Below are positions 1-14,082 of a stretch of DNA of 64,000 bases, one piece after another. The notes below the pieces were generated by a model. That model searched no databases and was not told the DNA's origin. It saw only the letters and a program-made list of their open reading frames with translations. Every line of letters starts with the position of its first letter. Position 1 is the stretch's first letter. Source of the stretch: Saccharopolyspora gregorii (lineage in GTDB: Bacteria; Actinomycetota; Actinomycetes; Mycobacteriales; Pseudonocardiaceae); contig NZ_CP059556.1 of assembly GCF_024734405.1 (NCBI RefSeq), forward strand, positions 2,604,001-2,668,000. The letters run 5' to 3'. A program made the translations under genes and the position numbers.

Positions 1-3000
1 GCGTGCTGCGCCAGCAGGAGGCGGTGCGCAACCGCGGCAAGCTGATCGACCTCGACCCGGGCCGCGCCGACTCCGCCGCGGACGCCGCGGATGTCCTGCG
101 CGCCGTCGCCGCACCCGACGAGGACGAGATCGCGGTGCGCGGCAACACGTTCCGCACCGCCCGGCTGCGCCCCGCGCAGGACCTGTCGACGCCGCTGCCA
201 CCCGTGCTGCGGCCGGACGGCACCTACCTGGTCACCGGCGCGTTCGGCGCCCTCGGCCGGTTGCTGTGCCGCACCCTAATCAAGCGGGGCGCGCGGCGGC
301 TGGTGCTGATCAGCCGCTCCGGGGTGCCGGAGCGCGTCGAGTGGGGGAACCAGCACCCGGACTCCCCGGTGGGCGGCCGCGTCCGCTTCGTCCGCGAACT
401 GGAAGCGCTCGGCGCGCACCCCGAGGTCGTCGGCCTCGACATCACCGACGAGACCGCGCTGACCACCTGGCTCGCCGAGCACCGGCGCGGTGCACCGCAG
501 CCGATCCGCGGGGTGTTCCACCTCGCCGGGAACCTGCGCGACGCGCTGGTGGCCGACCTGGACCGCGAGGCCTACCGCGCGGTGCACGACCCCAAGGTCG
601 TCGGCTCGCTGCTGCTGCACCGGCACCTGCGGGACGAGCCGCTGGAGCACTTCGTGCTGTTCGCCTCGATCGCGTCGCTGCTGACCACCGCGGGGCAGAC
701 GAACTACGCGGCGGGCAACGCCTTCCTCGACGCGCTCGCCCACCACCGGCGCGCGCTCGGGCTGCCCGCGCTCAGCATCGACTGGGGTCCGTGGGCCACC
801 GGCATGATCGAGGAGCAGGGCCTCGTCGAGCACTACCGGACCGCGCGCGGCATGAGCTCGCTGACGCCCGAGGGCGGCATGGCGGTGCTGGAGCGGATCC
901 TCGGGCAGCGCCACGCCCAGCTGGTGGTCGCCACCGTCGTCGACTGGCCCACCTTCCTGTCCTGGTACCCGGTCGCGCCGCCGCTGGTCGCCGAGCTCGC
1001 GTCCGCCGCCGACGCCGGGGACGCGGGCGAGACCGCGGGGTTCCTCGACGTCTTCCGCGCCGCCGACCCCGCGCTGCGCCGCGACCTGCTCACCGAGCGC
1101 TTCACAGCGCTGGTCGCCGGCGTGCTGCAGGTGCCGCCGGACTCGGTGGACGGGCAGGACGGGCTCAACGCGCTCGGCCTGGACTCGATGCTCGCGATGG
1201 AGCTGCGCGCGCAGATCCAGGCGGAGCTCGGCGTGGCGCTGCCGGTCGTCGCGCTGCTCGGCAACACCCCGGTGCGCGAACTGGTCCAGCAGGTCCACGA
1301 CGAGCTCGCGGAGTCCGCGGGCGCGGACGCGGGCGCGGTGGCGGCCGTGGAGGTCTTCCGCGACGAGCACCGCTTCCCGCTCACCCAGAACCAGAAGGCG
1401 CTGTGGTTCCTCAAGCAGCTGCACCCCGACGGCTTCGCCTACAACATCGGCGGCGCCGTCGAGGTCCGCACCGAACTGGACCCGCGGCTGCTGGCCGAGG
1501 CGTTCGGCACCCTGGTGGCCCGGCACCCGAGCCTGCGCGCCAACTTCCTGCTGCACCGCGGCGAACCGGTGCAGGTGATCGCGCCGGAGGCGGTGCCGGA
1601 CTTCGCGGTCGTCGACGTGCGCGGCCTGCCCTGGGAGGAGGTGCACCGGCGGATCGTCGCGGCCTACCGCGCGCCCTACGACCTCGAACGCGATCCGCTG
1701 ATCCGGTTCCGCCTGTTCCAGCGCGCGCCGGACCGCTGGGTGCTGGTGAAGGCCGTGCACCACATCATCTCGGACGCGATCTCGACGTTCACCTTCATCG
1801 AGGAACTGCTGGCCCTGTACGAAGGACTGCGGCGCGGTGCACCCGTCGAGCTGCCGCCGGTGGCCGCGAGCTACCTGGACTTCCTCAACCGGCAGAACGA
1901 GTTCCTGGCCGGGCCCGACGCGCGGCGGATGCTGGAGCACTGGCGCTCCCACCTGCCGGAGCGGATCGAGGTGCTGAACCTGCCGACGGACAAGCCGCGC
2001 CCGCTGGTGCAGACGCACAACGGGGCCTCGGAGTTCTTCGCGCTGGACACCGAGCTCAGCGCCCGGGTGCACGAACTGGCGCGGGAGCACAACGTCACCC
2101 CGTTCGTGGTGCTGCTCAGCGCCTACTACCTGCTGCTGCACCGGTACTCCGGCCAGGACGACCTCATCGTCGGCAGCCCGGTCACCGGCCGCACCGCGCC
2201 CGAGTTCGGCTCGGTGTACGGCTACTTCGTCAACCCGCTGCCGCTGCACGCGCACCTCGGCGGCGACCCGGCGGTGGCCGAACTGCTGGACCGGGTCCGC
2301 ACCGCAGTGCTGGGCGGGCTGGACAACCAGGAGTACCCGTTCGTGCTGCTGGTCGAGCAGCTCGGGTTGCAGCACGACCCGAGCCGCTCGGCGGTGTTCC
2401 AGGTGATGTTCATCCTGCTGCACCACAAGGTCTCCGCCGAGCAGTACGGCTACCGGCTCGACTACGTGGAGCTGCCCGAGGAGGAGGGCCAGTTCGACCT
2501 GACGCTGTCGGTGTACGAGGACGAAGCCGACCAGCGCTTCCACTGCGTGTTCAAGTACAACACCGACCTGTTCCTGCCCGCGACGATGCGGCGGCTGGCC
2601 GGGCACTACACGGCGCTGCTCGACGCGCTCACCGCGGCACCGCCCGCGCGGCGCATCGCGGAGCTGCCGATGCTCGACGCGGCCGAGCAGGACCGGATCC
2701 TCGGCGAGTGGAGCGGCGCGGGCCGCGAACCGGCCGTCGGCGCACCCGTGCACGAGCTGGTCGTCGCCGCCGCCCGCGAGCACCCGGACGCGATCGCGGT
2801 CTCGCACCCGGGGACCGACCGGCGGATGAGCTACGCCAAACTGGACGAGCTGTCCGCCCGGCTGGCGCGCGGGCTGCGGGCGCGCGGCGTCGGCGAGGGC
2901 TCGATCGTGGGGCTGTGCCAGGGGAAGAACCCGGAGCTGATCGCCTCGGTGCTGGCGGTGCTGCGCGCCGGCGCCGCCTACCTGCCGCTGGACCCGGGGC

Positions 3001-5216
3001 ACCCGCCGGATCGGCTCGCGGCGATGGTGCGGCGGGCCGGGGCGGGCGTGGTGCTCGCCGACGAGCCGGTGCGGGCGGTGCTCGGGACGGCGGCGGAGCT
3101 GCTGACCCCGGCGGAACTCGCGGCGGAGGGCGCCGGCGCGCCCGCGGGCGCGGAGGTCCGGGTCGCGCTCGACTCGCCCGCCTACGTCTGCTGCACCTCC
3201 GGTTCCACCGGCCTGCCGAAGGCGGTGCAGGTCAGCCACCGCAACCTCGCCTCCGCGCAGGCGTCCTGGCAGCGCGAGTACGGCCTCGGCGGGGACGTGC
3301 GGGTGCACCTGCAGCTCGCCAGCCCGGCCTTCGACGTGTTCACCGGCGACCTGGTGCGGGCGTTGAGCACCGGCGGGACCCTGGTGCTCGTCGACCGGGA
3401 CCTGCTGTTCAACACCGCGCTGCTGCACCGGACGATGGTCCGGGAACGGGTGGACTGCGCCGAGTTCGTGCCCGCGGTGGTGCGCGGACTGGTGGAGCAC
3501 TGCGAATCCCGCGGCGCGCGGCTGGACTTCCTGCGGGTGCTGGTCGTCGGCTCCGACGTGTGGAAGGTCGAGGAGCACCGGCGGCTGCGCGAGCTGTGCG
3601 GCCCGGACACCCGGCTGATCAGCTCCTACGGGGTCACCGAGGCCACGGTGGACAGCACCTGCTTCGAAGGGTCCACCGACGGGATGGAACCCGGGCAGCC
3701 GGTGCCGATCGGCACGCCGCTGCCGAACACCACCTGCTACGTGCTCGACGAGCACGAGCGGCCGGTGCCCGCGGGCGTCACCGGGGAGCTGTGGCTCGGC
3801 GGGGCCGCGGTCGCCACCGGCTACCGGGGCGACCCCGAGCAGACCGCCGAGCGGTTCCGCACCCTGTCCCCGGGCGGGGAGCCGGTGCGCTGCTACCGCA
3901 CCGGTGACCTGGCGCGCTGGGACGAGCGGGGCGTGCTGCACCTGCTGGGGCGGGCCGATTCGCAGATCAAGGTGCGCGGGCACCGGATCGAGCTCGGCGA
4001 GGTCGAAGCGCACCTGGCCGCCTGGCCGCAGCTCAAGCGGGTCGTGGTGGTGGCGCGCCCGGACTCCGGCGGGGAGACCGCGCTGTGCGCCTACTGCGTG
4101 CCGGTCGACGGCGCGGAGCTGGACCGGCGCGGCCTGCGCCGCCACCTGGCCGAGCACCTGCCCACGTTCATGATCCCGGCGCACCTGGTGGAACTGCCGG
4201 AACTGCCGCTGACGACGAGCGGCAAGGTCGACCTCGACGAGCTGCCCGCCCCGTCGGCCGCGCGGACCCACGACCACGAACCGACCACGACGCTGTTCGA
4301 GGAGCGGATGGCCGCGCACTGGCAGGCCCTGCTCGGTCTGGACCGGGTCGGGCTGCACGACGACTTCTTCGAGCTGGGCGGCAGTTCCATCAAGCTGATC
4401 GAGCTGATCCACCACGTGCAGGCCGAGTTCGACATCACCGTCGCGGTCGGCGAGCTGTTCAAGACCACGACGTTGCACGGGATGGCCAAGACCGTCGAGC
4501 ACGTGATCACCGGGCGGTTGCCGGGATCCCAGCCGTACGTGCGGTTCGGGGAGGGGCGCGGCGATCCGCTGTGCTGCTTCCCGCCGGTCGGCGGGCACGG
4601 GCTGGTGTACCGCCAGCTCGCCGGGCGGCTTCCCGAGCACGAGCTGATCGGGTTCAACTACCTCAGCGGGGACGACAAGATCGCCCGCTACGCGGACCTG
4701 GTCGAGGCGTTCCAGCCGGAGGGCGCCTGCCGGCTGCTGGGCTACTCGCTGGGCGGGAACCTGGCCTTCGAGGTCGCGGGCGAGCTGGAGCGGCGGGGCA
4801 GGCGAGTCGCCCGCGTGATCATCGTCGACTCCTACCGGATCTCGGCCCCGTTCGAGGTGGGCGACGAACAGCTCGCCGAGTTCGAGCGGGAGCTCGCCGA
4901 ACACCTGCGCAGGCACACCGGCACCGACGTGGTCGCCGAGGAGACCCGCGACCAGGCCCGGGAGTACCTGGAGTTCTGCGGCCGCACCCCGAACACCGCG
5001 GTGCTGGACGCGCCGATCACGGTGCTCAGCGACCCGCACAACCTCCCGATCCACCTCACCGGTGAGGAGGGCGGCTGGCAGGACCGCTCGCGGCGCGGAG
5101 CCGAGGTGCTGCGCGGATCCGGGGCGCACGCGGACATGCTCGACCGCGAGCACGTCGGCGCGAACGCGGACCTGGTGCGCGAGGTCCTCGCCGGGGGTGC
5201 GGCCGATGTCGCCTGA
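1..5216 (+). CDS. Hybrid PKS-NRPS, C-terminal part (KR-ACP-C-A-PCP-TE), tetramate macrolactam type
   Basis: Open at the 5' end, so only the last 1737 residues are visible. In order: ketoreductase (TGAFGALG near residue 78, active-site signature FASIASLL then NYAAGN), acyl carrier protein (GLDSML, Ser 395), condensation domain (HHIISDA, 586-592), adenylation domain (TSGSTGLPK near 1065, YRTGDL near 1298), peptidyl carrier protein (GGSS, Ser 1462) and a thioesterase-like end domain (GYSLGG, Ser 1582; late His in DREHVGA). Known of the family: the KR-ACP-C-A-PCP-TE order, followed by CrtI-like oxidoreductases and a P450, is the PTM synthase layout (HSAF, frontalamide, ikarugamycin), which joins two polyketide chains to ornithine as a tetramic acid. 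The ornithine specificity is inferred from the family, not read from the pocket. The stop overlaps the next start by 11 bases. Confidence 0.93.
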   Translation, partial: VLRQQEAVRNRGKLIDLDPGRADSAADAADVLRAVAAPDEDEIAVRGNTFRTARLRPAQDLSTPLPPVLRPDGTYLVTGAFGALGRLLCRTLIKRGARRLVLISRSGVPERVEWGNQHPDSPVGGRVRFVRELEALGAHPEVVGLDITDETALTTWLAEHRRGAPQPIRGVFHLAGNLRDALVADLDREAYRAVHDPKVVGSLLLHRHLRDEPLEHFVLFASIASLLTTAGQTNYAAGNAFLDALAHHRRALGLPALSIDWGPWATGMIEEQGLVEHYRTARGMSSLTPEGGMAVLERILGQRHAQLVVATVVDWPTFLSWYPVAPPLVAELASAADAGDAGETAGFLDVFRAADPALRRDLLTERFTALVAGVLQVPPDSVDGQDGLNALGLDSMLAMELRAQIQAELGVALPVVALLGNTPVRELVQQVHDELAESAGADAGAVAAVEVFRDEHRFPLTQNQKALWFLKQLHPDGFAYNIGGAVEVRTELDPRLLAEAFGTLVARHPSLRANFLLHRGEPVQVIAPEAVPDFAVVDVRGLPWEEVHRRIVAAYRAPYDLERDPLIRFRLFQRAPDRWVLVKAVHHIISDAISTFTFIEELLALYEGLRRGAPVELPPVAASYLDFLNRQNEFLAGPDARRMLEHWRSHLPERIEVLNLPTDKPRPLVQTHNGASEFFALDTELSARVHELAREHNVTPFVVLLSAYYLLLHRYSGQDDLIVGSPVTGRTAPEFGSVYGYFVNPLPLHAHLGGDPAVAELLDRVRTAVLGGLDNQEYPFVLLVEQLGLQHDPSRSAVFQVMFILLHHKVSAEQYGYRLDYVELPEEEGQFDLTLSVYEDEADQRFHCVFKYNTDLFLPATMRRLAGHYTALLDALTAAPPARRIAELPMLDAAEQDRILGEWSGAGREPAVGAPVHELVVAAAREHPDAIAVSHPGTDRRMSYAKLDELSARLARGLRARGVGEGSIVGLCQGKNPELIASVLAVLRAGAAYLPLDPGHPPDRLAAMVRRAGAGVVLADEPVRAVLGTAAELLTPAELAAEGAGAPAGAEVRVALDSPAYVCCTSGSTGLPKAVQVSHRNLASAQASWQREYGLGGDVRVHLQLASPAFDVFTGDLVRALSTGGTLVLVDRDLLFNTALLHRTMVRERVDCAEFVPAVVRGLVEHCESRGARLDFLRVLVVGSDVWKVEEHRRLRELCGPDTRLISSYGVTEATVDSTCFEGSTDGMEPGQPVPIGTPLPNTTCYVLDEHERPVPAGVTGELWLGGAAVATGYRGDPEQTAERFRTLSPGGEPVRCYRTGDLARWDERGVLHLLGRADSQIKVRGHRIELGEVEAHLAAWPQLKRVVVVARPDSGGETALCAYCVPVDGAELDRRGLRRHLAEHLPTFMIPAHLVELPELPLTTSGKVDLDELPAPSAARTHDHEPTTTLFEERMAAHWQALLGLDRVGLHDDFFELGGSSIKLIELIHHVQAEFDITVAVGELFKTTTLHGMAKTVEHVITGRLPGSQPYVRFGEGRGDPLCCFPPVGGHGLVYRQLAGRLPEHELIGFNYLSGDDKIARYADLVEAFQPEGACRLLGYSLGGNLAFEVAGELERRGRRVARVIIVDSYRISAPFEVGDEQLAEFERELAEHLRRHTGTDVVAEETRDQAREYLEFCGRTPNTAVLDAPITVLSDPHNLPIHLTGEEGGWQDRSRRGAEVLRGSGAHADMLDREHVGANADLVREVLAGGAADVA

Positions 5217-5646
5217 GACCGCCGACTTCGTCCGCTCCTCCCTGGAGCGCCGGTACCCGGGCATCGGCGACCGGGCGGAGGCCGGCGCCGTGGCCACCCC
5301 GGTGACCCGGCACCGCTGCACCGGCACCCTCGACGGCAGCATCCTCGCCTGGAAGTCCTTCGGCGAAGCTGGCGACCTGGTGGCGAGGCTGGTCGACCGG
5401 GGCCGGATGCGGTCGCCGGGATGGCGCGGGTTCTCGATGGCGGGTCAGCGGGTCGGCGGTGGCGGACTGATCCGCGCCGCCTCCTCCGGCCGGTTCGCCG
5501 CGCAGTTCCGGTGCGCGGAGCTCGGGGTGCCGTTCCGGGCGTGGGAGAGCGATCAGCGGCAGCGGCCCTGGGAGCCCGGGATGCTCGGGGAACTGCCGCT
5601 GCTGGACCGGAATCGGGTTCGGCACGACGGGAGGGGCCAGGGGTGA
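5206..5646 (+). pseudogene. Remnant of a CrtI-like FAD oxidoreductase (C-terminal quarter only)
   Basis: A 146-residue open frame that starts inside the PKS-NRPS gene (ATG overlaps its stop by 11 bases) and ends in a GTGA overlap with the next gene. It lacks the N-terminal FAD-binding motif. It aligns by eye with roughly the last 140 residues of the next protein: ATPVTRHRCTGTLDGSILAW against STPLTQVRYTGNYDGTVLGW, then GGLIRAASSGR against GGLIRAVGAGR. PTM clusters such as frontalamide carry two adjacent FAD oxidoreductases, so this looks like the first one with its N-terminal three quarters deleted. No oxidoreductase activity is expected. It may still couple translation of its neighbours. Confidence 0.75.
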
Positions 5647-7346
5647 ACCGCGAAACGATGATCATCATCGGTGGTGGGCTGGGCGGGTTGTCCACCGGCT
5701 GCTACGCCCAGATGAACGGCTACCGCTCGCGGATCTTCGAGATGCACGAGATCCCCGGCGGCTGTTGCACCGCGTGGGACAAGGGCGACTTCACCTTCGA
5801 CATCTGCGTGAGCTGGCTGCTCGGCAACGGGCCCGGCAACGAGATGCACCAGATCTGGCTGGAGCTCGGCGCCTTGCAGGGCAAGGAGATGCGGCACTTC
5901 GACGTGTTCAACGTGGTGCGTGCGCGGGACGGGCGGGCGGTGTACTTCTACTCCGACCCGGACCGGCTGCAGGCGCACCTCACCGAGCTGTCGCCCGCGG
6001 ACGCGCGGCTGATCCGGCACTTCTGCAACGGCCTGCGCAAGTTCCGGAAGGCGATCACGGTCTACCCGTTCCTCAAGCCGGTCGGGCTGATGGGCCGGTT
6101 CGAGCGCTGGCGGATGCTGGCCTCGTTCCTGCCGTACCTCAACGTCATCCGCACCTCCATCACCACCCTGATGACGGACTACTCGGCGAAGTTCCGGGAC
6201 CCGCTGCTGCGGGAGGCGTTCAACTTCATCCTCTACGAGAAGCACCCGGCGTTCCCGGTGCTGCCGTTCTACTTCCAGCTCGCCTCGCACGCGAACCGCT
6301 CGGCCGGGGTGCCTGAAGGCGGCTCGCAGGGGCTGTCGGACTCCATCGAGCAGCGCTACCACCGGCTCGGTGGCCGGATCACCTACAACGCCAAGGTCGT
6401 CGAGGTGCTGGTGGAGGACGACCGCGCGGTCGGGGTGCGGCTCAGCGACGGCAGCGAACACCGCGCCGACATCGTCGTGTCCGCCTGCGACGGGCGCACC
6501 ACCACGATGGAACTGCTCGGCGGCCGGTACCTCTCCGACGACCACCGGCGGCTCTACGAGAAGACCATCGACGAGCCCGGCATGATCTTCCCGGGGTACT
6601 TCGCGCTGTTCCTCGGCCTGGACCGGCCGTTCCCCGAAGTCGATCCCTGCACCACGCACCTGCTCGACGAGGACGTGGCGTCGAAGCTGATCGGGCTGCG
6701 CCACCCGAGCATCAACGTGCAGTTCCGCAGCGAGCACTACCCGGAGCTGGCCCCGCCGGGCGGCGCGGTCGTGTACGCCACCTACTTCTGCGACATCGAA
6801 CCGTGGCGGGCGCTGAGCACCGGGCCGGAACAACGGACCCGGGTCCGGCACGGCACCGAGGTGCACACCCTCCCGGTGCGCCGCGGCACCGCGTACTACG
6901 CGGCGAAGCGCCAGGTGAAGGACGCGCTGGTCGACCACCTCGACACCTGCCACCCCGGGCTGCGGGACGCCGTGGTCACCCGCGACATCTCCACCCCGCT
7001 CACCCAGGTCCGCTACACCGGCAACTACGACGGCACCGTCCTCGGCTGGCAGCCGTTCGTGGACGGGGGCGAGGACATGGAGGAGGCGATCAAGAAGCAC
7101 GGGCCGCGGCTGCCCGGGCTGGCGAACTTCTACCTGTCCGGGGTGTGGGCCACGACCGGCGGCCTCATCCGGGCCGTCGGCGCGGGCAGGCAGGTCATGC
7201 ACTTCGTGTGCCGCGACGACGCCAAGGAGTTCACCGCGCACATCGACGAATCCGCACCACCGCCCACCCACCGGGTCATCCCGGTAGGACCGGACGTCCC
7301 CCGGCAGGCCGCGGCGGCCGAGCCGGCCCCGAAGCGAGGAGCCTGA
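5643..7346 (+). CDS. CrtI/phytoene-desaturase-like FAD oxidoreductase of the PTM pathway
   Basis: 567 residues from a GTG that overlaps the previous stop (GTGA). The N-terminus holds the dinucleotide-binding motif IIIGGGLGGLSTGCYA, followed by the acidic end (IFEMHEIPGGCC) and the C-terminal GGLIRAVGAGR segment that closes the FAD site in this family. In tetramate macrolactam clusters, enzymes of this type close the carbocycles on the polyene tetramate by reductive cyclisation; ikarugamycin uses one and frontalamide two. It looks intact, and it is the only complete one here. The role in ring closure is inferred from the position after the synthase and from the family. Confidence 0.88.
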   Translation: MNRETMIIIGGGLGGLSTGCYAQMNGYRSRIFEMHEIPGGCCTAWDKGDFTFDICVSWLLGNGPGNEMHQIWLELGALQGKEMRHFDVFNVVRARDGRAVYFYSDPDRLQAHLTELSPADARLIRHFCNGLRKFRKAITVYPFLKPVGLMGRFERWRMLASFLPYLNVIRTSITTLMTDYSAKFRDPLLREAFNFILYEKHPAFPVLPFYFQLASHANRSAGVPEGGSQGLSDSIEQRYHRLGGRITYNAKVVEVLVEDDRAVGVRLSDGSEHRADIVVSACDGRTTTMELLGGRYLSDDHRRLYEKTIDEPGMIFPGYFALFLGLDRPFPEVDPCTTHLLDEDVASKLIGLRHPSINVQFRSEHYPELAPPGGAVVYATYFCDIEPWRALSTGPEQRTRVRHGTEVHTLPVRRGTAYYAAKRQVKDALVDHLDTCHPGLRDAVVTRDISTPLTQVRYTGNYDGTVLGWQPFVDGGEDMEEAIKKHGPRLPGLANFYLSGVWATTGGLIRAVGAGRQVMHFVCRDDAKEFTAHIDESAPPPTHRVIPVGPDVPRQAAAAEPAPKRGA

Positions 7347-7347
7347 G

Positions 7348-7509
7348 GTGAAGATCGAGAACTGGGTCGTCCGCGAGCACGCGGAGGGCGTGCCCGCGGT
7401 CGACCACGACCAGACCGCGTACCACGGGATCGACGCGATCCCGGACGCCTGCGACAGCCCGTACCGCGGAAGCGCGGCCAACCGGGGAAAGGTGCTGGTG
7501 GAACTGTGA
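7348..7509 (+). pseudogene. 53-codon internally deleted remnant of an MDR-type alcohol dehydrogenase
   Basis: An in-frame GTG-to-TGA frame of 53 codons, one base after the oxidoreductase stop, ending in a GTGA overlap with the P450. Residues 1-19 (MKIENWVVREHAEGVPAVD) look like the N-terminus of a medium-chain, NADP-dependent alcohol dehydrogenase. Residues 22-53 (TAYHGIDAIPDA, then NRGKVLVEL) look like its extreme C-terminus. About 280 central residues, including the Rossmann fold, are missing. PTM clusters carry an alcohol dehydrogenase at exactly this place, between the FAD oxidoreductase and the P450, where it closes the last ring. Seen: the frame and both ends. Inferred: a single in-frame deletion. 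Confidence 0.7.
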
Positions 7510-8750
7510 ACAGCGTGGAGGACGTCCCGCGACCGGGCTCGGCCGGGAACCCGCGGAGCTACCCGTTCGACCAACCGGACCGGCTGGGGGTCCACCCGTC
7601 CTACGCGGAGCTGCGGCGCGACGACCCGGTGTCGCGGGTGCAGCTCGCCTACGGCGAACCGGCCTGGCTGGCCACCCGCTACGCGGACGTGAAGTTCGTG
7701 CTCAGCGACCCGCGGTTCAGCCGGGCGCTCGCGTTCGACCGGGACGAGCCCAGCACCCGGCCGAAGGGCGCCATCGGCCGCCACATCCGCAGCCTGCAGT
7801 ACCTGGATCCACCGGAGCACACCCGCATCCGCAAGATCCTCAGCCACGCCTTCACGGTGCGCGGCATCGAGAAGCTGCGCCCCGGGGTGCAGCGGCTCGC
7901 CGACGAGCTCGTCGACGGCATGCTGGAACGCGGTCGCACCGCCGACCTCGCGGAGGACTTCGCGCGGCCGTTCCCGGCGGGCGTGATCTGCGAGCTGCTG
8001 GGCGTGCCGTACGCGGACCGGCACGACTTCCAGACCTGGTCGGACGCCTTCATGTCCGTCGGCAGGCTGTCCCCGGAACAGATCCGGTCCTACGCCACGC
8101 AGCTGCGCGAGTACATGGGCAGGCTCATCGTGCAGCGCCGCGAGGCGCCGAAGGACGACCTGATGAGCATCCTCGTCACCGCCCGCGACGTGGACGGCAG
8201 GCTCGACGACGACGAGCTGCTGTCGCTGGCGGTGGCGATCCTCGTCGGCGGGCACGAGACGACGGCCTCGCAGATCTCCAGCTTCACGTACGCCCTGCTC
8301 GCCCGGCCCGAGCTGCTGGCCCGGCTGGTCGCGGACCCGGAACTGGTGGCGCCGACCGTGGAGGAGCTGCTGCGCTACGTCCCGCTGTTCTCGATGGCGG
8401 CGTTCCCGCGCTACGCCACCGAGGACGTCGAGGTGGGCGGGGTGCTGGTGCGCGCGGGCGAACCGGTGCTGGTGAGCCTGGTCTCGGCGAACCGGGACGA
8501 GTCGGTGTACCACGACCCCGACGTGCTGGACGTGACGCGGAAGGAGTCCGCGCACGTCGGTTTCGGCTACGGCGCGCACTTCTGCGTCGGGGCGCAGCTG
8601 GCCCGGGTGGAGCTGCAGATCGCGTTGCGCACCTTGCTGCGGCGCCTGCCGGGATTGCGGTTCGCCACCTCCGAGCAGGACGTGGAGTGGAAGCGGGGGC
8701 TGTTCACCCGCGGCCCGCTGCGGCTGCCGATCGCCTGGGACGGGGCCTGA
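7506..8750 (+). CDS. Cytochrome P450, probable PTM tailoring enzyme
   Basis: 414 residues from a GTG overlapping the previous stop by four bases. Haem-ligand loop FGYGAHFCVGAQLA (Cys 360), I-helix oxygen-activation motif GGHETTA and the ExxR helix are all present, and the length is normal for a bacterial class I P450. It closes a run of translationally coupled genes with the synthase and FAD oxidoreductase, so a late oxidation (hydroxylation or epoxidation) of the macrolactam is the likely job, as for the P450s of ikarugamycin- and frontalamide-type clusters. No ferredoxin gene is visible nearby. Confidence 0.9.
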   Translation: MNSVEDVPRPGSAGNPRSYPFDQPDRLGVHPSYAELRRDDPVSRVQLAYGEPAWLATRYADVKFVLSDPRFSRALAFDRDEPSTRPKGAIGRHIRSLQYLDPPEHTRIRKILSHAFTVRGIEKLRPGVQRLADELVDGMLERGRTADLAEDFARPFPAGVICELLGVPYADRHDFQTWSDAFMSVGRLSPEQIRSYATQLREYMGRLIVQRREAPKDDLMSILVTARDVDGRLDDDELLSLAVAILVGGHETTASQISSFTYALLARPELLARLVADPELVAPTVEELLRYVPLFSMAAFPRYATEDVEVGGVLVRAGEPVLVSLVSANRDESVYHDPDVLDVTRKESAHVGFGYGAHFCVGAQLARVELQIALRTLLRRLPGLRFATSEQDVEWKRGLFTRGPLRLPIAWDGA

Positions 8751-8763
8751 CCGCCCACCGGAC

Positions 8764-8780
8764 GGGCGGGCGGCCCGCCC
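8764..8780. terminator. GC-rich palindrome between convergent P450 genes
   Basis: GGGCGGGC, one base, then GCCCGCCC: a perfect 8-base inverted repeat in the 34-base gap between two converging P450 genes. A symmetrical hairpin without a T-run is a plausible bidirectional terminator in a high-GC genome. Confidence 0.5.
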
Positions 8781-8784
8781 CTGA

Positions 8785-9963
8785 TCACCACGTCACCGGG
8801 AGGCGGTGCACGCCGTAGTTGACCGAGGCCTCGCGCAGCGGGACCTCGGCGGCGGGCACCGCCAACCGCAGTCCGGGGAACCGCCGCAGCAGCCCGGAGA
8901 ACCCGAGCCGCAGCTCCACCCGGGCGAGCTGCGCACCCAGGCAGTGGTGGATGCCGTGCCCGAACGCCAGGTGCCCGGTGGCCGGCCGGCCGAGGTCCAG
9001 CCGGTCGGGTTCCGGGAACCGCTCCGGGTCCCGGTTGGCCGCCGACAGCGAGACCGTGATCGGTTCGCCTTCGCGGATGGTGCTGCCGCGCAGGTCGACG
9101 TCCTCCAGCGCGGTGCGGGTGGCGCCGAACTGGTTGATCGTCAGGTACCGCAGCAGTTCCTCCACCGCGGTGTCGATCATCGCCGGGTCCGCGCGCAGCG
9201 CCGCGAGCTGCTCGGGGTGCGCGAGCAGGGCGTAGGTGCCGAGGCCGAGCATGTTCGCCGTCGTGTCGTCGCCGCCGGTGATGAGCATCGAGCACATCGT
9301 GGCGATCTCCTCGTCGGAGAGGTCTTCGTCGGCGAGCAGCGCGCTCACCAGGTCGTCACCGGGGGCGGCGCGCTTGGCGCGCACCTGCTCGTGCAGCTCG
9401 GTCCACAGCCGTCCCCACGCTCGCCCGGTGCTCTCCGCGTCGTTCTCCAGCGCCAGCATCGATTCGGTGGCGGCGCGCACCGAGGCCCGGTCCAGCCGCG
9501 CGCCGAGCAGCGTGCCGATCACCTCGAACGCGACGGGGCTCGCGAATACCCCGACCAGGTCGACGGGCCCGCCCGCGGCCTCCACCGCGTCGAGCCGCCG
9601 CTCGACGACGTCGGCGACCAGCGGTTCCAGCCGCTGCACCCGGCGCGGGGCGAACGCGGCGGCCAGCTTGCGCCGGTACCACGCGTGCTCGGCGGCAGGC
9701 AGCACGCTGAACAGGCCCGGCGGCACCTCGTCGAAGGTGTCCTCGCCGTCGGCGGGGCCGCGCATCACGTCGAGGCTGGAGCTGAAGCGGTGGTCGACGA
9801 GCACCTCGCGGGCCAGTTCGTGGCTGGTCACCAGCCAGCCGAGCCTGCCGTCGGAGTGGTGCAGCCGCACTAGCGGTTGCGCCGCGCGCAGTTCCCGCAG
9901 CCCGTCGTGCGGATCGAAGGGGCGGCTGCGGGTCGTGGGGTGGCGCACCGGCGTGCCGGTCAT
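8785..9963 (-). CDS. Cytochrome P450
   Basis: 392 residues from ATG 9961-9963. Haem loop FGHGIHHCLGAQLA (Cys 341), I-helix TGGDDTTAN and EELLRY are present; the acid in the oxygen-activation motif is Asp (GGDDT) rather than the usual Glu. It faces the PTM operon tail to tail and is not in its transcription unit. It could be an extra tailoring enzyme or an unrelated P450; the sequence alone does not decide. Confidence 0.9.
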   Translation of the reverse strand: MTGTPVRHPTTRSRPFDPHDGLRELRAAQPLVRLHHSDGRLGWLVTSHELAREVLVDHRFSSSLDVMRGPADGEDTFDEVPPGLFSVLPAAEHAWYRRKLAAAFAPRRVQRLEPLVADVVERRLDAVEAAGGPVDLVGVFASPVAFEVIGTLLGARLDRASVRAATESMLALENDAESTGRAWGRLWTELHEQVRAKRAAPGDDLVSALLADEDLSDEEIATMCSMLITGGDDTTANMLGLGTYALLAHPEQLAALRADPAMIDTAVEELLRYLTINQFGATRTALEDVDLRGSTIREGEPITVSLSAANRDPERFPEPDRLDLGRPATGHLAFGHGIHHCLGAQLARVELRLGFSGLLRRFPGLRLAVPAAEVPLREASVNYGVHRLPVTW

Positions 9964-10214
9964 GGCGGGCTCCTCGTCGGGGTCGGAGAGGGCAGACGAT
10001 CTCCATGCTTCCGGGACGGCGGTGCGAAGTCAGGGATCTCCACCCGTCCGTGCGGCGGACGAAACCCGTTCAGCGCAACGCTTTCCGCTCCCGAGTTCCG
10101 CGTGCCGGACCACCGCCGGGGCGCGCCAGGAGGGCGGGACGCGGTCGCCGAGCGGCGGGCGCGCCGACGCCACCCCGGGCGGGCGACCGGACCCGGCCAC
10201 GACGGGCTCCGCCC
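9964..10214. other. Intergenic, no supported gene
   Basis: Upstream region of the P450 at 8785-9963. I see no RNA gene, strong hairpin or coding frame with family features here. Confidence 0.5.
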
Positions 10215-10370
10215 CGGAACTTCGTGGTGGCCGCCGGGATCCCGGTCCTCGACGGTCTCGGCGCCGTCGGCGGCGGCGCGCACGCCCGCACCGAGCACGC
10301 CACGATCAGCGGCATGCTCGAACGCTCCGCCCTCACCGCCGCGCTGCTGGCCGAACTCGCCGTCCGCTGA
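10215..10370 (+). pseudogene. C-terminal relic of an M20-family metallopeptidase
   Basis: The last about 50 codons of an open frame read NFVVAAGIPVLDGLGAVGG, then GAHARTEHATI and ALTAALLAEL before the stop. This is the C-terminus typical of glutamate carboxypeptidase/acetylornithine-deacetylase-like M20 enzymes, where the GGGxH segment supplies a metal-site His. Nothing matching the rest of the enzyme is readable upstream in any frame, so this is a decayed 3' end. Confidence 0.6.
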
Positions 10371-10435
10371 CCAGGACCGCCCGGGTGGCCCGCGCCGCCG
10401 GTCGTGCGGCCGGTGACGCGGGCCCGCGCCGCGGC

Positions 10436-10849
10436 TCAGCTCTCGTCGAAGCGGGCCAGGGCTTGCGCGGTGGTGGGGAAGCACCGCATCGCGGTGTCGA
10501 GCCCGGCCACCTCCAGCGCGTGGGTGACCTCGCGGTGCGCGGTCACCAGCCGGAGCTCGACCCCGCGGGACCGCGCGTCCAGGTGGGCCTGCTTCAGCAG
10601 CTGCATCCCCGCCACGCTCAGGAAACCGACGCCGCTCAGGTCGACGACGATGGTCCGGACCTGGGCCGACAGGCGCGGCCACAGGACTTCTTCGAGGTGG
10701 TCGATGGTCTCGGCGTCGATCTCCCCGCCGGGTTCGACGACGATCGACTCGCGGTCGGGGTACGAGACCTGCACGCGGAACCGCGGTGGTGCCGATTCCG
10801 CTCGGTGGCCGGTCTCGGTCGGGTTCTCGGTCGGGTCCGGGGTGGTCAT
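10436..10849 (-). CDS. STAS-domain anti-sigma-factor antagonist
   Basis: 137 residues from ATG 10847-10849; the open frame continues upstream but that part has no domain. The core (IVVEPGGEIDAETI, then IVVDLSGVGFLSVAGMQLL) is a STAS fold with the Ser in the position phosphorylated in SpoIIAA/RsbV-type antagonists. Such proteins bind a partner anti-sigma kinase in its resting state. No kinase or sigma factor is next to it, so its partner is unknown. Confidence 0.85.
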   Translation of the reverse strand: MTTPDPTENPTETGHRAESAPPRFRVQVSYPDRESIVVEPGGEIDAETIDHLEEVLWPRLSAQVRTIVVDLSGVGFLSVAGMQLLKQAHLDARSRGVELRLVTAHREVTHALEVAGLDTAMRCFPTTAQALARFDES

Positions 10850-11161
10850 GTGCTGCGCGCTCCACTGTGGTCTCGCCCCGGTCAGCGCGCAGCTTCCGCC
10901 CCGCGACGGGACGGCCCGGGAACGGGCTCCGCATCGCGCACGGATCAGCGACGCCGGACCGGCACCGGTTCTGATCCTGGGTGGCTGACTGCTCAACCAC
11001 GGGCATCTTAACCACTGCATTCGCCCGCGTTCCGGCAGCACCCGGTGCGGCGGGCGCGGTCGGCTCCCGGGTGTCCTCGGCCCGGCCGTCGGCGTGCGTC
11101 CGGCGGGAGACGCGTTCCCCGCTCTCGCGCCGCCGCCCCCCGCGGCGGGTGCGCGGCCGCG

Positions 11162-12661
11162 TCAGGCCGGGCTGGGGGAGGGTTCCGCGGGCCGCGCCGT
11201 GCGGACCTCGCGGCGCAGGAGCTTGCCGGTCGGCCCCTTCGGCAGCTCCGCCGTGACCCAGACCTGGCGCGGGTACTTGTACGCGGCGACGCGGGCCTTC
11301 ACGAATTCGCGGATCTCGTCCGCGGTCGCCATCGCGCCCGGCTTCAGCGCGATCGCGGCGACCACCTCCTCGCCGAGCTCCGGGTGCGCCACGCCGACCA
11401 CCGCGGCCTCGGCCACGGCCGGGTGCTCGTAGATGACCTCCTCGATCTCCCGCGGGTAGACGTTGTAGCCACCACGGATAATCATGTCCTTCTTCCGGTC
11501 GACGATGGTGAAGTAGCCGTCCTCGTCGCAGACCGCGAGGTCCCCGGTGCGCAGCCAGCCGTCGACGATCGTGTCCGCGGTGACCTCGGGCAGCCCCCAG
11601 TAGCCCTTCATCACGTTCGGGCCCTTGATCACGATCTCGCCGACCTCGCCGGTCGGGACGCCGCGCCCGCCGTCGTCGATCACGCGCAGGGAGACGTCCC
11701 GCACGGGCACGCCGATCGAACCGGGTTTGCGTTCGAGGTGGGGGTGGTTGAAGCACGCCACCGGCGAGCTCTCGGACAGGCCGTAGCCTTCGAGGATCAC
11801 GCAGCCGAAGGTCTCCTCGAAGGCCCGCAGCAGCTCGACGGGCAGCGGTGCGCCACCGCAGATGCAGCACCGCACGGTGGTGAGGTCGGCGTCGCCCGCG
11901 GCGTGCAGCATCGCGGAGTACATCGTGGGCACGCCCTCGAACACCGTGACGCGATCGCGCTCGATCACCTCCAGCGCCTTGGCGCCCTCGAAGCGCGCGA
12001 TCAGCGTCAGGCAGGCCCCCGCCTGCACCGAGGCGATCAGCCCGCAGGTGAGCCCGAAGACGTGGAACAGCGGCAGGCATCCCATCACCACGTCGCCGGG
12101 CCCGATCTCGACGAGGGTCTCGCGGGTCACCGCGGCGTTGCCGTCGATGTTCGCGTGGGTCAGTTCGGCGCCCTTCGGGCGTCCCGTCGTCCCGGAGGTG
12201 TAGAGGATCACCGCGGTGTCGTCGTCGGCCCGGTCGACGATCTCCGGGACGTCGGCGGTGGCCGCGTCCGTCCCGCGCGGGTCGACGACGATCACGGTGG
12301 CGCCGGTGGCCGCGGCCCCGGCTCGTGCCTCGTCGGCCGCTTCGGGCGAGGCGAACAGGAACCGGGCCCCCGAGTCGGCCAGGTAGTGCTCGATCTCCCC
12401 GGACTTGAGCAGCGGGTTCATCGGTACGACGACGCCGCCGGCGAGGAGGCTGCCGAACAGGTGCACCGGGTAGGCGGGCACGTTCGGCAGGATCAGCCCC
12501 ACCCGGTCCCCGGGTTCGAGCCCGTTCGCGGTCAACCAGCGCGCCACCCCGGCGGCCACGGCCAGCAGCCGGTCGTAGGTCAGCACGGTGTCGTCGAGGC
12601 GGACGGCCGCGCGGTCGCCGTGCGCTTGCGCCGCGTCGAGCAGGCGGTTGGCGAGGTTCAT
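11162..12661 (-). CDS. Long-chain acyl-CoA synthetase-like AMP-binding ligase
   Basis: 499 residues. AMP-binding signature YTSGTTGRPKGAEL, GYGLSESSP in the acyl-adenylate core, and the hinge region DRKKDMIIRGGYNVYPREIEE; the C-terminal lysine lies in PKGPTGKLL. It activates a carboxylic acid as an acyl-AMP and transfers it to CoA. It diverges from the PucR-type regulator at 12790, and both share a promoter region of 128 bases with a palindrome. With the alcohol and aldehyde oxidases at 14052-17142 it could complete an alcohol to aldehyde to acid to acyl-CoA route (inference). Confidence 0.88.
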   Translation of the reverse strand: MNLANRLLDAAQAHGDRAAVRLDDTVLTYDRLLAVAAGVARWLTANGLEPGDRVGLILPNVPAYPVHLFGSLLAGGVVVPMNPLLKSGEIEHYLADSGARFLFASPEAADEARAGAAATGATVIVVDPRGTDAATADVPEIVDRADDDTAVILYTSGTTGRPKGAELTHANIDGNAAVTRETLVEIGPGDVVMGCLPLFHVFGLTCGLIASVQAGACLTLIARFEGAKALEVIERDRVTVFEGVPTMYSAMLHAAGDADLTTVRCCICGGAPLPVELLRAFEETFGCVILEGYGLSESSPVACFNHPHLERKPGSIGVPVRDVSLRVIDDGGRGVPTGEVGEIVIKGPNVMKGYWGLPEVTADTIVDGWLRTGDLAVCDEDGYFTIVDRKKDMIIRGGYNVYPREIEEVIYEHPAVAEAAVVGVAHPELGEEVVAAIALKPGAMATADEIREFVKARVAAYKYPRQVWVTAELPKGPTGKLLRREVRTARPAEPSPSPA

Positions 12662-12761
12662 GATGGCCCGCTTCCTGTGGTGGTGTCCGAGGTAGGCATC
12701 ACTATCTCGCCGCCCACCTGCGAAATCACCGGGACGGCCTACAGTCGCAGCAGCACGAGTT

Positions 12762-12776
12762 TGTGGTCGGACGACA
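12762..12776. promoter_or_regulatory. Near-perfect palindrome in the fadD-like/PucR divergent promoter
   Basis: TGTGGTC G GACGACA: 7-base arms with one mismatch around a single base, 13 bases before the regulator's GTG. It resembles the perfect palindrome at 17242-17256, suggesting one regulator acts at both. Confidence 0.45.
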
Positions 12777-12789
12777 GAGGGGCGGTACC

Positions 12790-14082
12790 GTGCCGGGAAT
12801 GGAAGCTGCCCCGCTGGTCGGTCGCATCGTCGATCGCGTGCTGGTGGACCTGGAGGCCACGGTCGAACGCTCGGTGGCGCGCACCTGGGAAGAAGTGCCC
12901 GCCTACTCGGCGAGCCGGGACGAGAGCCTGGGGCCGGACCTGCGCACCCACACCAGGTCGGTCTTCGACGCCGTCCTCGCCACCATGCGGGCCGGCCGCC
13001 GAGCCGATCGCGACGACTTCCGGAGCTCCGTCGAACAGGCCCGCCACCGGGTCCGGCAGGGCGTCGCGCTGGCCGACTTCATGCAGGGCTTCCGCATCGG
13101 GCAGGAGGCGCTGTGGGAGGCCATCGTCGCGGCGGCGAAGGAGGACCCCGACACCCGGATGGCGGCGCTCGACCTGGCGATCCACGTGATGAACGTGATC
13201 GAGGTGGGCAGCTCGGTGACGGCGGAGACCTACCTGGTCGCCCAGCAGATGGAGCTCGCCGACGACGACCTGCTCCGCCGCGACCTGGTGGAGGACCTGC
13301 TCGCCGCGCGCGACCTCGTCCCCGGCCCGAAGGCCGACCTGGCGGCGGAGTCCGGGCTGGCGGCCGCGTCGTCGATCGTGGTGGTCGTCGCGAAACCTGC
13401 CACCGAGCTCCGCACCGACCAGAGCCTGCGCGAAGTGGTCACCACGGTGCGCACGTCGCTCGGCACCGGGCAGCAGGGGGTCGCGGTGCTGCGGCAGGAC
13501 CACGTGGTCGGGATCGCGCCGGTGCACGCCGACGGCGCCGAACTCGTCCAGGGCCTCGAACGCGCGTACCGCAGCTTGCGCGGCCGGGGGATCCACCTCG
13601 GCGTCGGGGTGAGCACCGTCCACGACGGGCTGCGCGAGGTCCCCGCCGCGCGCCACGAGGCGGTCCTGGCGCGCAAGAGCCTGGCGGGGGAGCCGGGCGT
13701 GCGGCGGCTGGCCGAACTGTCCCCGCTGGACTACCTGGTGCTGCTCGACGACGCCACCGCGCGGCGGCTGATCACCGCACCCGTGCGGTCGTTCATCGAG
13801 GAGGACCTGGGCCAGGCGGGCACGATGATCGAGACGATCCGGCTGTACGCCGACTGCGACCTCAACGCGAAGGCCGCCGCCGAACGGCTGCACGTGCACG
13901 TGAACACGGTGTACTACCGCTTGGAGCGGATCTCCGAGCGCACCGGCTGCGACCTGCGCAGCTTCGCCGACTTCCAGAACCTGCTGGTGGCAGCGCGGCT
14001 GCTGGCCCCGGCCGAGCGGGCCGGGGCCGGCGACCGCGCTGGCGGAGGCGATCAGGCGGGCGGCGGCAGGACCAGCGCGTAA
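12790..14082 (+). CDS. PucR/CdaR-type transcriptional regulator
   Basis: 430 residues from GTG 12790, chosen for the AGAGGGG ribosome site seven bases upstream; ATG 12799 is possible. The C-terminal 60 residues are the HTH_30 type (CDLNAKAAAERLHVHVNTVYYRLERI); the middle looks like the GGDEF-like PucR domain. Such proteins are usually activators of nearby catabolic operons. Its 3' end overlaps the converging aldehyde dehydrogenase gene by 31 bases. Sites at 12762 and 17242 are candidate targets. Confidence 0.85.
   Translation: MPGMEAAPLVGRIVDRVLVDLEATVERSVARTWEEVPAYSASRDESLGPDLRTHTRSVFDAVLATMRAGRRADRDDFRSSVEQARHRVRQGVALADFMQGFRIGQEALWEAIVAAAKEDPDTRMAALDLAIHVMNVIEVGSSVTAETYLVAQQMELADDDLLRRDLVEDLLAARDLVPGPKADLAAESGLAAASSIVVVVAKPATELRTDQSLREVVTTVRTSLGTGQQGVAVLRQDHVVGIAPVHADGAELVQGLERAYRSLRGRGIHLGVGVSTVHDGLREVPAARHEAVLARKSLAGEPGVRRLAELSPLDYLVLLDDATARRLITAPVRSFIEEDLGQAGTMIETIRLYADCDLNAKAAAERLHVHVNTVYYRLERISERTGCDLRSFADFQNLLVAARLLAPAERAGAGDRAGGGDQAGGGRTSA

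Follow-up and report, generated by a model that had tools for sequence, protein, structure and literature searches.

A tetramate macrolactam operon of Saccharopolyspora gregorii with one intact cyclase gene and two in-frame cyclase stubs

The window analyzed here is a stretch of 64,000 nucleotides (positions 2604001-2668000 of contig NZ_CP059556.1) from the one-contig 6.34-Mb genome of Saccharopolyspora gregorii, labeled G000. It opens inside a gene cluster of the polycyclic tetramate macrolactam (PTM, or PoTeM) type, in which the gene for a hybrid polyketide synthase-nonribosomal peptide synthetase (PKS-NRPS, also called the PKS below) is followed by one intact cyclase gene, the remnants of two others and two cytochrome P450 genes. 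The two FAD oxidoreductases of such clusters are called FAD1 and FAD2, and the alcohol dehydrogenase ADH. In window coordinates the features are as follows.

1..5216, plus strand: 3' part of the PKS-NRPS gene, with KR at 219-797, ACP at about 1098-1289, C at 1368-2699, A at 2766-3824 plus its C-terminal subdomain, PCP at about 4296-4475 (range estimated from the LGGSS motif) and TE at 4566-5153.
5206..5646, plus strand: FAD1 stub, 146 aa, in frame; intact counterpart at L016:11320-12981 in Saccharopolyspora sp. NFXS83.
5643..7346, plus strand: FAD2, a complete FAD oxidoreductase of 567 aa with a GTG start, putatively of the PtmB2/OX3/IkaB type.
7348..7509, plus strand: ADH stub of the PtmC/IkaC type, 53 aa, in frame; intact counterpart at L016:14678-15733 in NFXS83.
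7506..8750, plus strand: cytochrome P450, 414 aa, GTG start, the start overlapping the TGA of the ADH stub.
8785..9963, minus strand: another cytochrome P450 gene, which meets the operon tail-to-tail; both other congeners that carry a PTM cluster have it at the corresponding position.

Because the minus-strand P450 gene occupies this place in all three genus genomes in which the cluster was found, the unit should extend to 9963. A search of window positions 1-14000 gave no Rfam match.

With upstream DNA added, the PKS-NRPS proved to be encoded by a single frame of 3,081 aa; its start codon lies 4,030 bases ahead of the first letter of the window, and the frame ends at 5216. In the upstream stretch Pfam identified KS, AT, DH, KR and ACP; window positions 3-5216 contributed KR, ACP, C, A, PCP and TE. 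The two parts overlap in KR-ACP, so that the full order is KS-AT-DH-KR-ACP-C-A-PCP-TE; motifs for every one of these domains are present, the PKS active-site motifs included. This is the single PKS-NRPS of a PTM cluster, and it presumably works in the iterative mode of that family. The synthase shares 77% identity with that of NFXS83 and 62-65% with those from 17 further loci of the same family, the Pseudonocardiaceae. As in other PTM synthases, its A domain would be expected to take L-ornithine and its product to be a tetramate macrolactam. The original prediction, made from the letters of the window, was that of a PTM operon with one complete FAD oxidoreductase and no ADH, whose KS, AT and DH domains should lie before base 1. 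These domains are found there in the same frame. The domain order and the two stubs bear out the rest, and the relatives of the FAD oxidoreductase and of the PKS are PTM loci, not loci of other synthases.

The FAD1 stub consists of the first three codons (M-S-P) joined to the last ~140 residues of a FAD oxidoreductase; the FAD/nucleotide-binding N-terminal part is deleted. In the ADH stub about 20 N-terminal residues of an alcohol dehydrogenase are joined to 33 C-terminal residues. Start codons, stop codons and reading frame are kept in both cases. GTGA stop/start overlaps connect the FAD1 stub with FAD2 (5643-5646) and the ADH stub with the plus-strand P450 (7506-7509), and the same overlap occurs between the intact FAD1 and FAD2 of NFXS83. 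There the orthologous intact genes encode proteins of ~552 aa (FAD1) and 351 aa (ADH). The stubs are deletions, since a strain of the same genus retains all three cyclases. A second ring-forming enzyme, whether a second FAD oxidoreductase or an ADH, is represented by stubs only. With the intact plan present in a congener, the cluster is described here as a reduced derivative of a PTM cluster and not as a standard one.

No close substitute for the lost enzymes turned up in the genome. The complete FAD protein, used as a query (E≤0.001), found FAD2 itself and the stub and nothing else. An ortholog of ADH was likewise not found; the best ADH-like protein is 39% identical over residues 33-350 (E≤1e-20). 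The possibility of complete copies just upstream, which would have undone the prediction, was examined by inspection of the upstream open reading frames, without a family search on them, and none was seen. One could still imagine that the work of the lost cyclases has passed to one of the P450s, or to a distantly related dehydrogenase or oxidoreductase encoded at another site of the genome, and that a conventional polycycle is made. Four ADH-like proteins with 35-40% identity and the two P450s at the end of the operon are candidates for such a role. However, ADHs from the clusters of other genera in the family are 54-66% identical to that of NFXS83, so none of the four looks orthologous, and no further FAD gene of this kind was found. 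We consider a replacement of this kind very unlikely.

Next we compared the layout with those of other PTM loci. FAD2 was used to scan 390 genomes of the family at E≤1e-60 with three candidates scored per genome (three or four in all family searches for P450 and FAD genes). A match was present in 22 genomes: 19 have two matches, S. gregorii has FAD2 alone, a further Saccharopolyspora genome (G004) has a piece of FAD1, and G272 has one match on a short contig. A scan of named genomes with the PCP-TE region supplied the best 80 of 201 relatives. Together with 18 family regions and the loci of S. gregorii, G004 and NFXS83 (G005) these give 101 loci, which correspond to 92 distinct records, or to 86 after merging of loci with a shared sampled 200-mer. 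Eight records were set aside, seven with a contig end less than 5 kb from the PKS (in L092 it cuts FAD2) and one without a PKS.

The 84 classifiable loci comprise 47 with FAD1, FAD2 and ADH, 20 with FAD1 and FAD2, 13 with FAD2 and ADH, two with no cyclase, one broken locus (G004) and one with FAD2 alone, that of S. gregorii. No other locus in this set has exactly one intact cyclase; 80 of the 84 have two or more. An order-level search of 397 genomes gave eight with a match, and the only new one among them, G682, has FAD2 and ADH without FAD1. The claim that known PTM operons have at least one more ring-forming enzyme thus holds for 80 of the 82 other unbroken loci, but two loci have no cyclase nearby. 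In these two, L144 (Amycolatopsis arida) and L146 (Streptomyces sp. ISL-100), a full-length PTM-type PKS-NRPS gene (62% identical) is present, and neither the 10 kb downstream of it nor the ~1.4 kb upstream contains a match to a FAD oxidoreductase or an ADH. They are possible makers of an uncyclised tetramate.

Absence of ADH is common in itself (20/84 loci). The clusters with both FAD genes and no ADH (L045-L050, L056, L059, L061, L084, L085, L090, L095, L096, L100, L102, L112, L122, L143 and L162) are scattered on the FAD2 tree, with 11 changes. The 5-5 bicyclic PTMs named in titles cited by PMC11724479 may be their products. In one of them, L061, a P450 gene follows directly after FAD2 on the same strand, no ADH was found, and the FAD2 match (G191:C1:7384816-7386492) contains one in-frame TGA.

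How many rings the remaining enzyme might close can be approached from known pathways. For pactamide, passages of PMC6950151 assign the first five-membered ring to PtmB2, the second to PtmB1 and the third to PtmC; in Lysobacter, OX3, a homolog of PtmB2, closes the first ring, and OX1 with OX2 the second (PMC6950151). For ikarugamycin, closure of the outer two rings is ascribed to IkaB and that of the inner ring to IkaC (PMC11724479). By gene content we assigned FAD1 putatively to the PtmB1 type and FAD2 to the PtmB2 type. The assignment is suggested by FAD2 being the type retained in ikarugamycin-like loci. A role of FAD1 in the second ring and of FAD2 in the first would also fit the Lysobacter loci L099 and L117, which have two FAD1-type genes, one FAD2-type gene and an ADH.

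FAD2 of S. gregorii is a phytoene-dehydrogenase-like cyclase that groups with the cyclases of PTM clusters. In a tree from which two badly aligned rows (L130, L062) were dropped, computed with a quick method that provides only Shimodaira-Hasegawa-like approximate likelihood ratio (SH-aLRT) supports, it falls within a Saccharopolyspora clade of eight rows (SH-aLRT 100). The other seven members of this clade are all partnered with FAD1. The ikarugamycin-type FAD2s, 15 rows, form a separate group with a support of 94, and the S. gregorii protein lies outside it.

These groupings bear on the idea that FAD2 acts like IkaB and closes two rings by itself, which would lead to an oxidised bicyclic tetramate. 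The occurrence of FAD2 and ADH without FAD1 in 13 of the 84 loci, together with the formation of two outer rings by IkaB, suggests that members of the FAD2 family differ in the number of rings they close. Furthermore, in a first tree, which still included the two badly aligned rows, the ikarugamycin-type sequences fell into two groups, one of which (five rows) adjoined the Saccharopolyspora clade; this is a point against a one-ring enzyme. The position of FAD2 in the cleaned tree and the FAD1 partners of its clade members argue the other way, and we regard an IkaB-like FAD2 as improbable. With PtmB2 reported as the enzyme of the first ring and the FAD2 clade outside the ikarugamycin group, FAD2 is expected, with some doubt, to close one ring.

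The two P450s at the end of the operon differ in their relationships. The plus-strand P450 is missing from the clusters of NFXS83 and G004. Its best relatives (60-62% identical) are encoded elsewhere in other genomes, and 257 of the 390 family genomes contain a match at E≤1e-95. Relatives at about 60% also occur outside the clusters in NFXS83 and G004, and S. gregorii itself has one at 59%. In the tree this P450 groups with 19 P450s that are not linked to PTM clusters (support 100/99), and the group of 18 P450s from PTM clusters is a mere neighbour at weak support (88/47). Hence it does not group with the tailoring P450s of PTM clusters (IkaD/CftA/FtdF), and orthology with the P450s of these clusters finds no support in the tree. 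Among solved structures CftA matches it with 358 bits, behind 20 others. An ancestral place in the cluster was also set aside, since both cluster-bearing congeners have the minus-strand P450 only. The latter is 67% (NFXS83) and 70% identical to its counterparts beside the cluster in these two congeners and most probably represents the older, conserved partner of the cluster. Its ratio of nonsynonymous to synonymous substitution rates (dN/dS) in S. gregorii is not significantly raised.

From these data we propose that an ancestral plan PKS - PtmB1 - PtmB2 - PtmC would have been pared by two in-frame deletions, which removed FAD1 and ADH, and that a P450 from a group foreign to PTM clusters was added directly behind the ADH stub. 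The PKS-NRPS would still make the usual polyene tetramate of the lysobacterene type. FAD2 would close the first five-membered ring only, the second and third rings would stay unclosed, and the monocyclic macrolactam would be oxidised by one or both P450s. We think it marginally probable that the locus is a pared PTM operon with an oxidised monocyclic macrolactam as its product; if the operon works, this is the most likely product. The fuller version, to which we give somewhat less than an even chance, is a living and naturally minimised pathway: a P450 of recent recruitment would join the synthase and the one PtmB2-type cyclase in yielding a one-ring oxidised macrolactam, and the stub frames would serve to pass ribosomes on through the GTGA overlaps.

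A different reading arises from the other members of the genus. The sample comprises six genomes (G000-G005), and the cluster occurs in them in four states: it is intact in NFXS83 (loci L016/L083), where PKS, FAD1, FAD2 and ADH are followed by the minus-strand P450; pared in S. gregorii; ruined in G004; and absent from G001-G003, which gave no match to a FAD gene of this kind at E≤0.001. In G004 (L017, G004:C1:3231000-3250500) the PKS is spread over three frames, for which sequencing error is a possible cause, the N-terminal part of FAD1 runs out of frame into the C-terminal part of ADH, and FAD2 is lost. The deletions in S. gregorii and in G004 are different.

The genes that flank the cluster in S. 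gregorii differ from those in NFXS83. The PTM block (window -4589 to 9963) lies at another chromosomal site than in NFXS83 and G004. All five congeners possess the gene that lies upstream of it in S. gregorii, and in none of them do the 19 kb around that gene include a PTM block (L016, L017 and L175-L179 compared), which suggests that the block was either moved or separately gained. A dispersed repeat of ~160 bases with a long hairpin (DNA fold z -5.7) lies ~3 kb before the PKS at G000:C1:2596970-2597134 (L009:10971-11135). This repeat has 30 to 44 matches per genome in all six genus genomes (40 candidates scored per genome), and in both NFXS83 (L016:15826-15981) and G004 (L017:15034-15191) one copy sits between the PTM operon and the minus-strand P450.

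The absence of the FAD gene from three of the six genomes and the different ruin in G004 suggest that the pathway may be in the course of being lost in the genus. In that case FAD1 and ADH went first, the PKS-NRPS and FAD2 are not yet broken, and no useful product is made. We then examined the constraint on the genes. Along the S. gregorii branch FAD2 has a dN/dS of 0.053 (background 0.052; approximate 95% range 0.033-0.084) and the PKS one of 0.088 (background 0.090; range 0.073-0.107), with only the length of the tested branch re-fitted. At positions where the 17 other loci of the family do not vary, changes private to S. gregorii number 6/42 in the FAD1 stub, 3/287 in FAD2 and 36/1137 in the PKS (Fisher test, stub versus FAD2 p=0.0002, stub versus PKS p=0.003). 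The ADH stub has 3/21 such changes (8 loci). The private changes of NFXS83 at the same sites are 2 in FAD1, 1 in ADH, 3 in FAD2 and 15 in the PKS. In the FAD1 stub conserved C-terminal motifs are altered, for example MAGQW to MAGQR. The counts are consistent with FAD1 being dead and FAD2 being under constraint.

Several points speak against the pared operon proposed above. The dN/dS of the FAD1 stub (0.205, range 0.09-0.57) is not significantly above its background of 0.109 (2dlnL, twice the log-likelihood difference, 1.70). Furthermore, its 6/42 changes do not differ significantly from the 2/42 in the intact gene of NFXS83 (p=0.26), and the same holds for both stubs pooled (9/63 versus 3/63, p=0.13). 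The 36 changes in the PKS exceed the 15 in NFXS83 (p=0.005), a hint of loosening constraint. A PKS segment from the ruined cluster of G004, taken as a control, is equally low in dN/dS (0.089). The ratio therefore cannot tell a live cluster from a recently dead one, and we rejected branch dN/dS as proof of function. Finally, a single genome shows this layout.

These selection tests leave decay quite possible. Nevertheless, the 9.2-kb PKS-NRPS, FAD2 and the P450 are all open, both losses are in frame with the gene overlaps retained, the P450 sits directly behind the ADH stub, and FAD1 has more changes at conserved sites than FAD2. On balance we hold decay to be less likely than the proposed reading but a strong competitor to it. 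An operon that still works is favoured by the open PKS, FAD2 and P450 genes, by deletions that keep the frame and by the uptake of a P450 into the operon.

The closest known cluster is that of NFXS83, described in a passage of PMC10145562 (as BGC3) as highly similar to the PTM cluster of S. griseus. It shares the gene order, and in addition to the PKS and the minus-strand P450 its FAD2 is similar (86-87% identity). It differs from that of S. gregorii in having intact FAD1 and ADH genes, no plus-strand P450 within the cluster and other genes at its flanks. Four clusters from S. spinosa (L089), S. hirsuta (L088), S. kobensis (L097) and S. indica (L087) also lack ADH and have a minus-strand P450 after FAD2, which is 83-84% identical. 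However, their FAD1 is intact; S. gregorii has only the stub of it, together with an additional P450 from a different group. Clusters of the ikarugamycin type (for example L086, L094, L103 and L137; type by gene content) resemble the S. gregorii locus in having, besides the PKS-NRPS, just one FAD oxidoreductase, which belongs to the same family, and a P450 nearby, but they keep an ADH, and their FAD2s are those of the separate group. S. gregorii has only a stub of the ADH, and its FAD2 lies outside. With 5/5/6-type clusters such as those for pactamide and the heat-stable antifungal factor (HSAF) it shares the pactamide-type plan of a PKS, two FAD oxidoreductases and an ADH, two of the three cyclases, the PtmB1 and PtmC types, being reduced to stubs.

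No published description of a single-cyclase layout was found in the literature searched, which did not cover the main survey (Harper 2024). The suggestion that the product may have fewer carbocycles than known PTMs does not stand, as oxidised PTMs with one or two rings, the sahamides from S. hirsuta, are already in print, cited in PMC11724479 under a title that names these ring numbers; the sahamides probably derive from the ADH-less cluster of S. hirsuta. Oxidised compounds with one or two rings are reported from reassembled pathways. The S. gregorii operon would thus, if it works, be a natural example of known chemistry in a new gene layout.

The ring pattern is what distinguishes the types of PTM. 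If the cluster is instead decaying, the three congeners with an intact, a pared and a ruined version would provide a compact example of how a PTM cluster is lost. If the operon works as proposed, evolution would have taken the same step as the reassembled pathways; S. gregorii would be a possible source of the monocyclic intermediate, and its P450 may act on a less rigid substrate.

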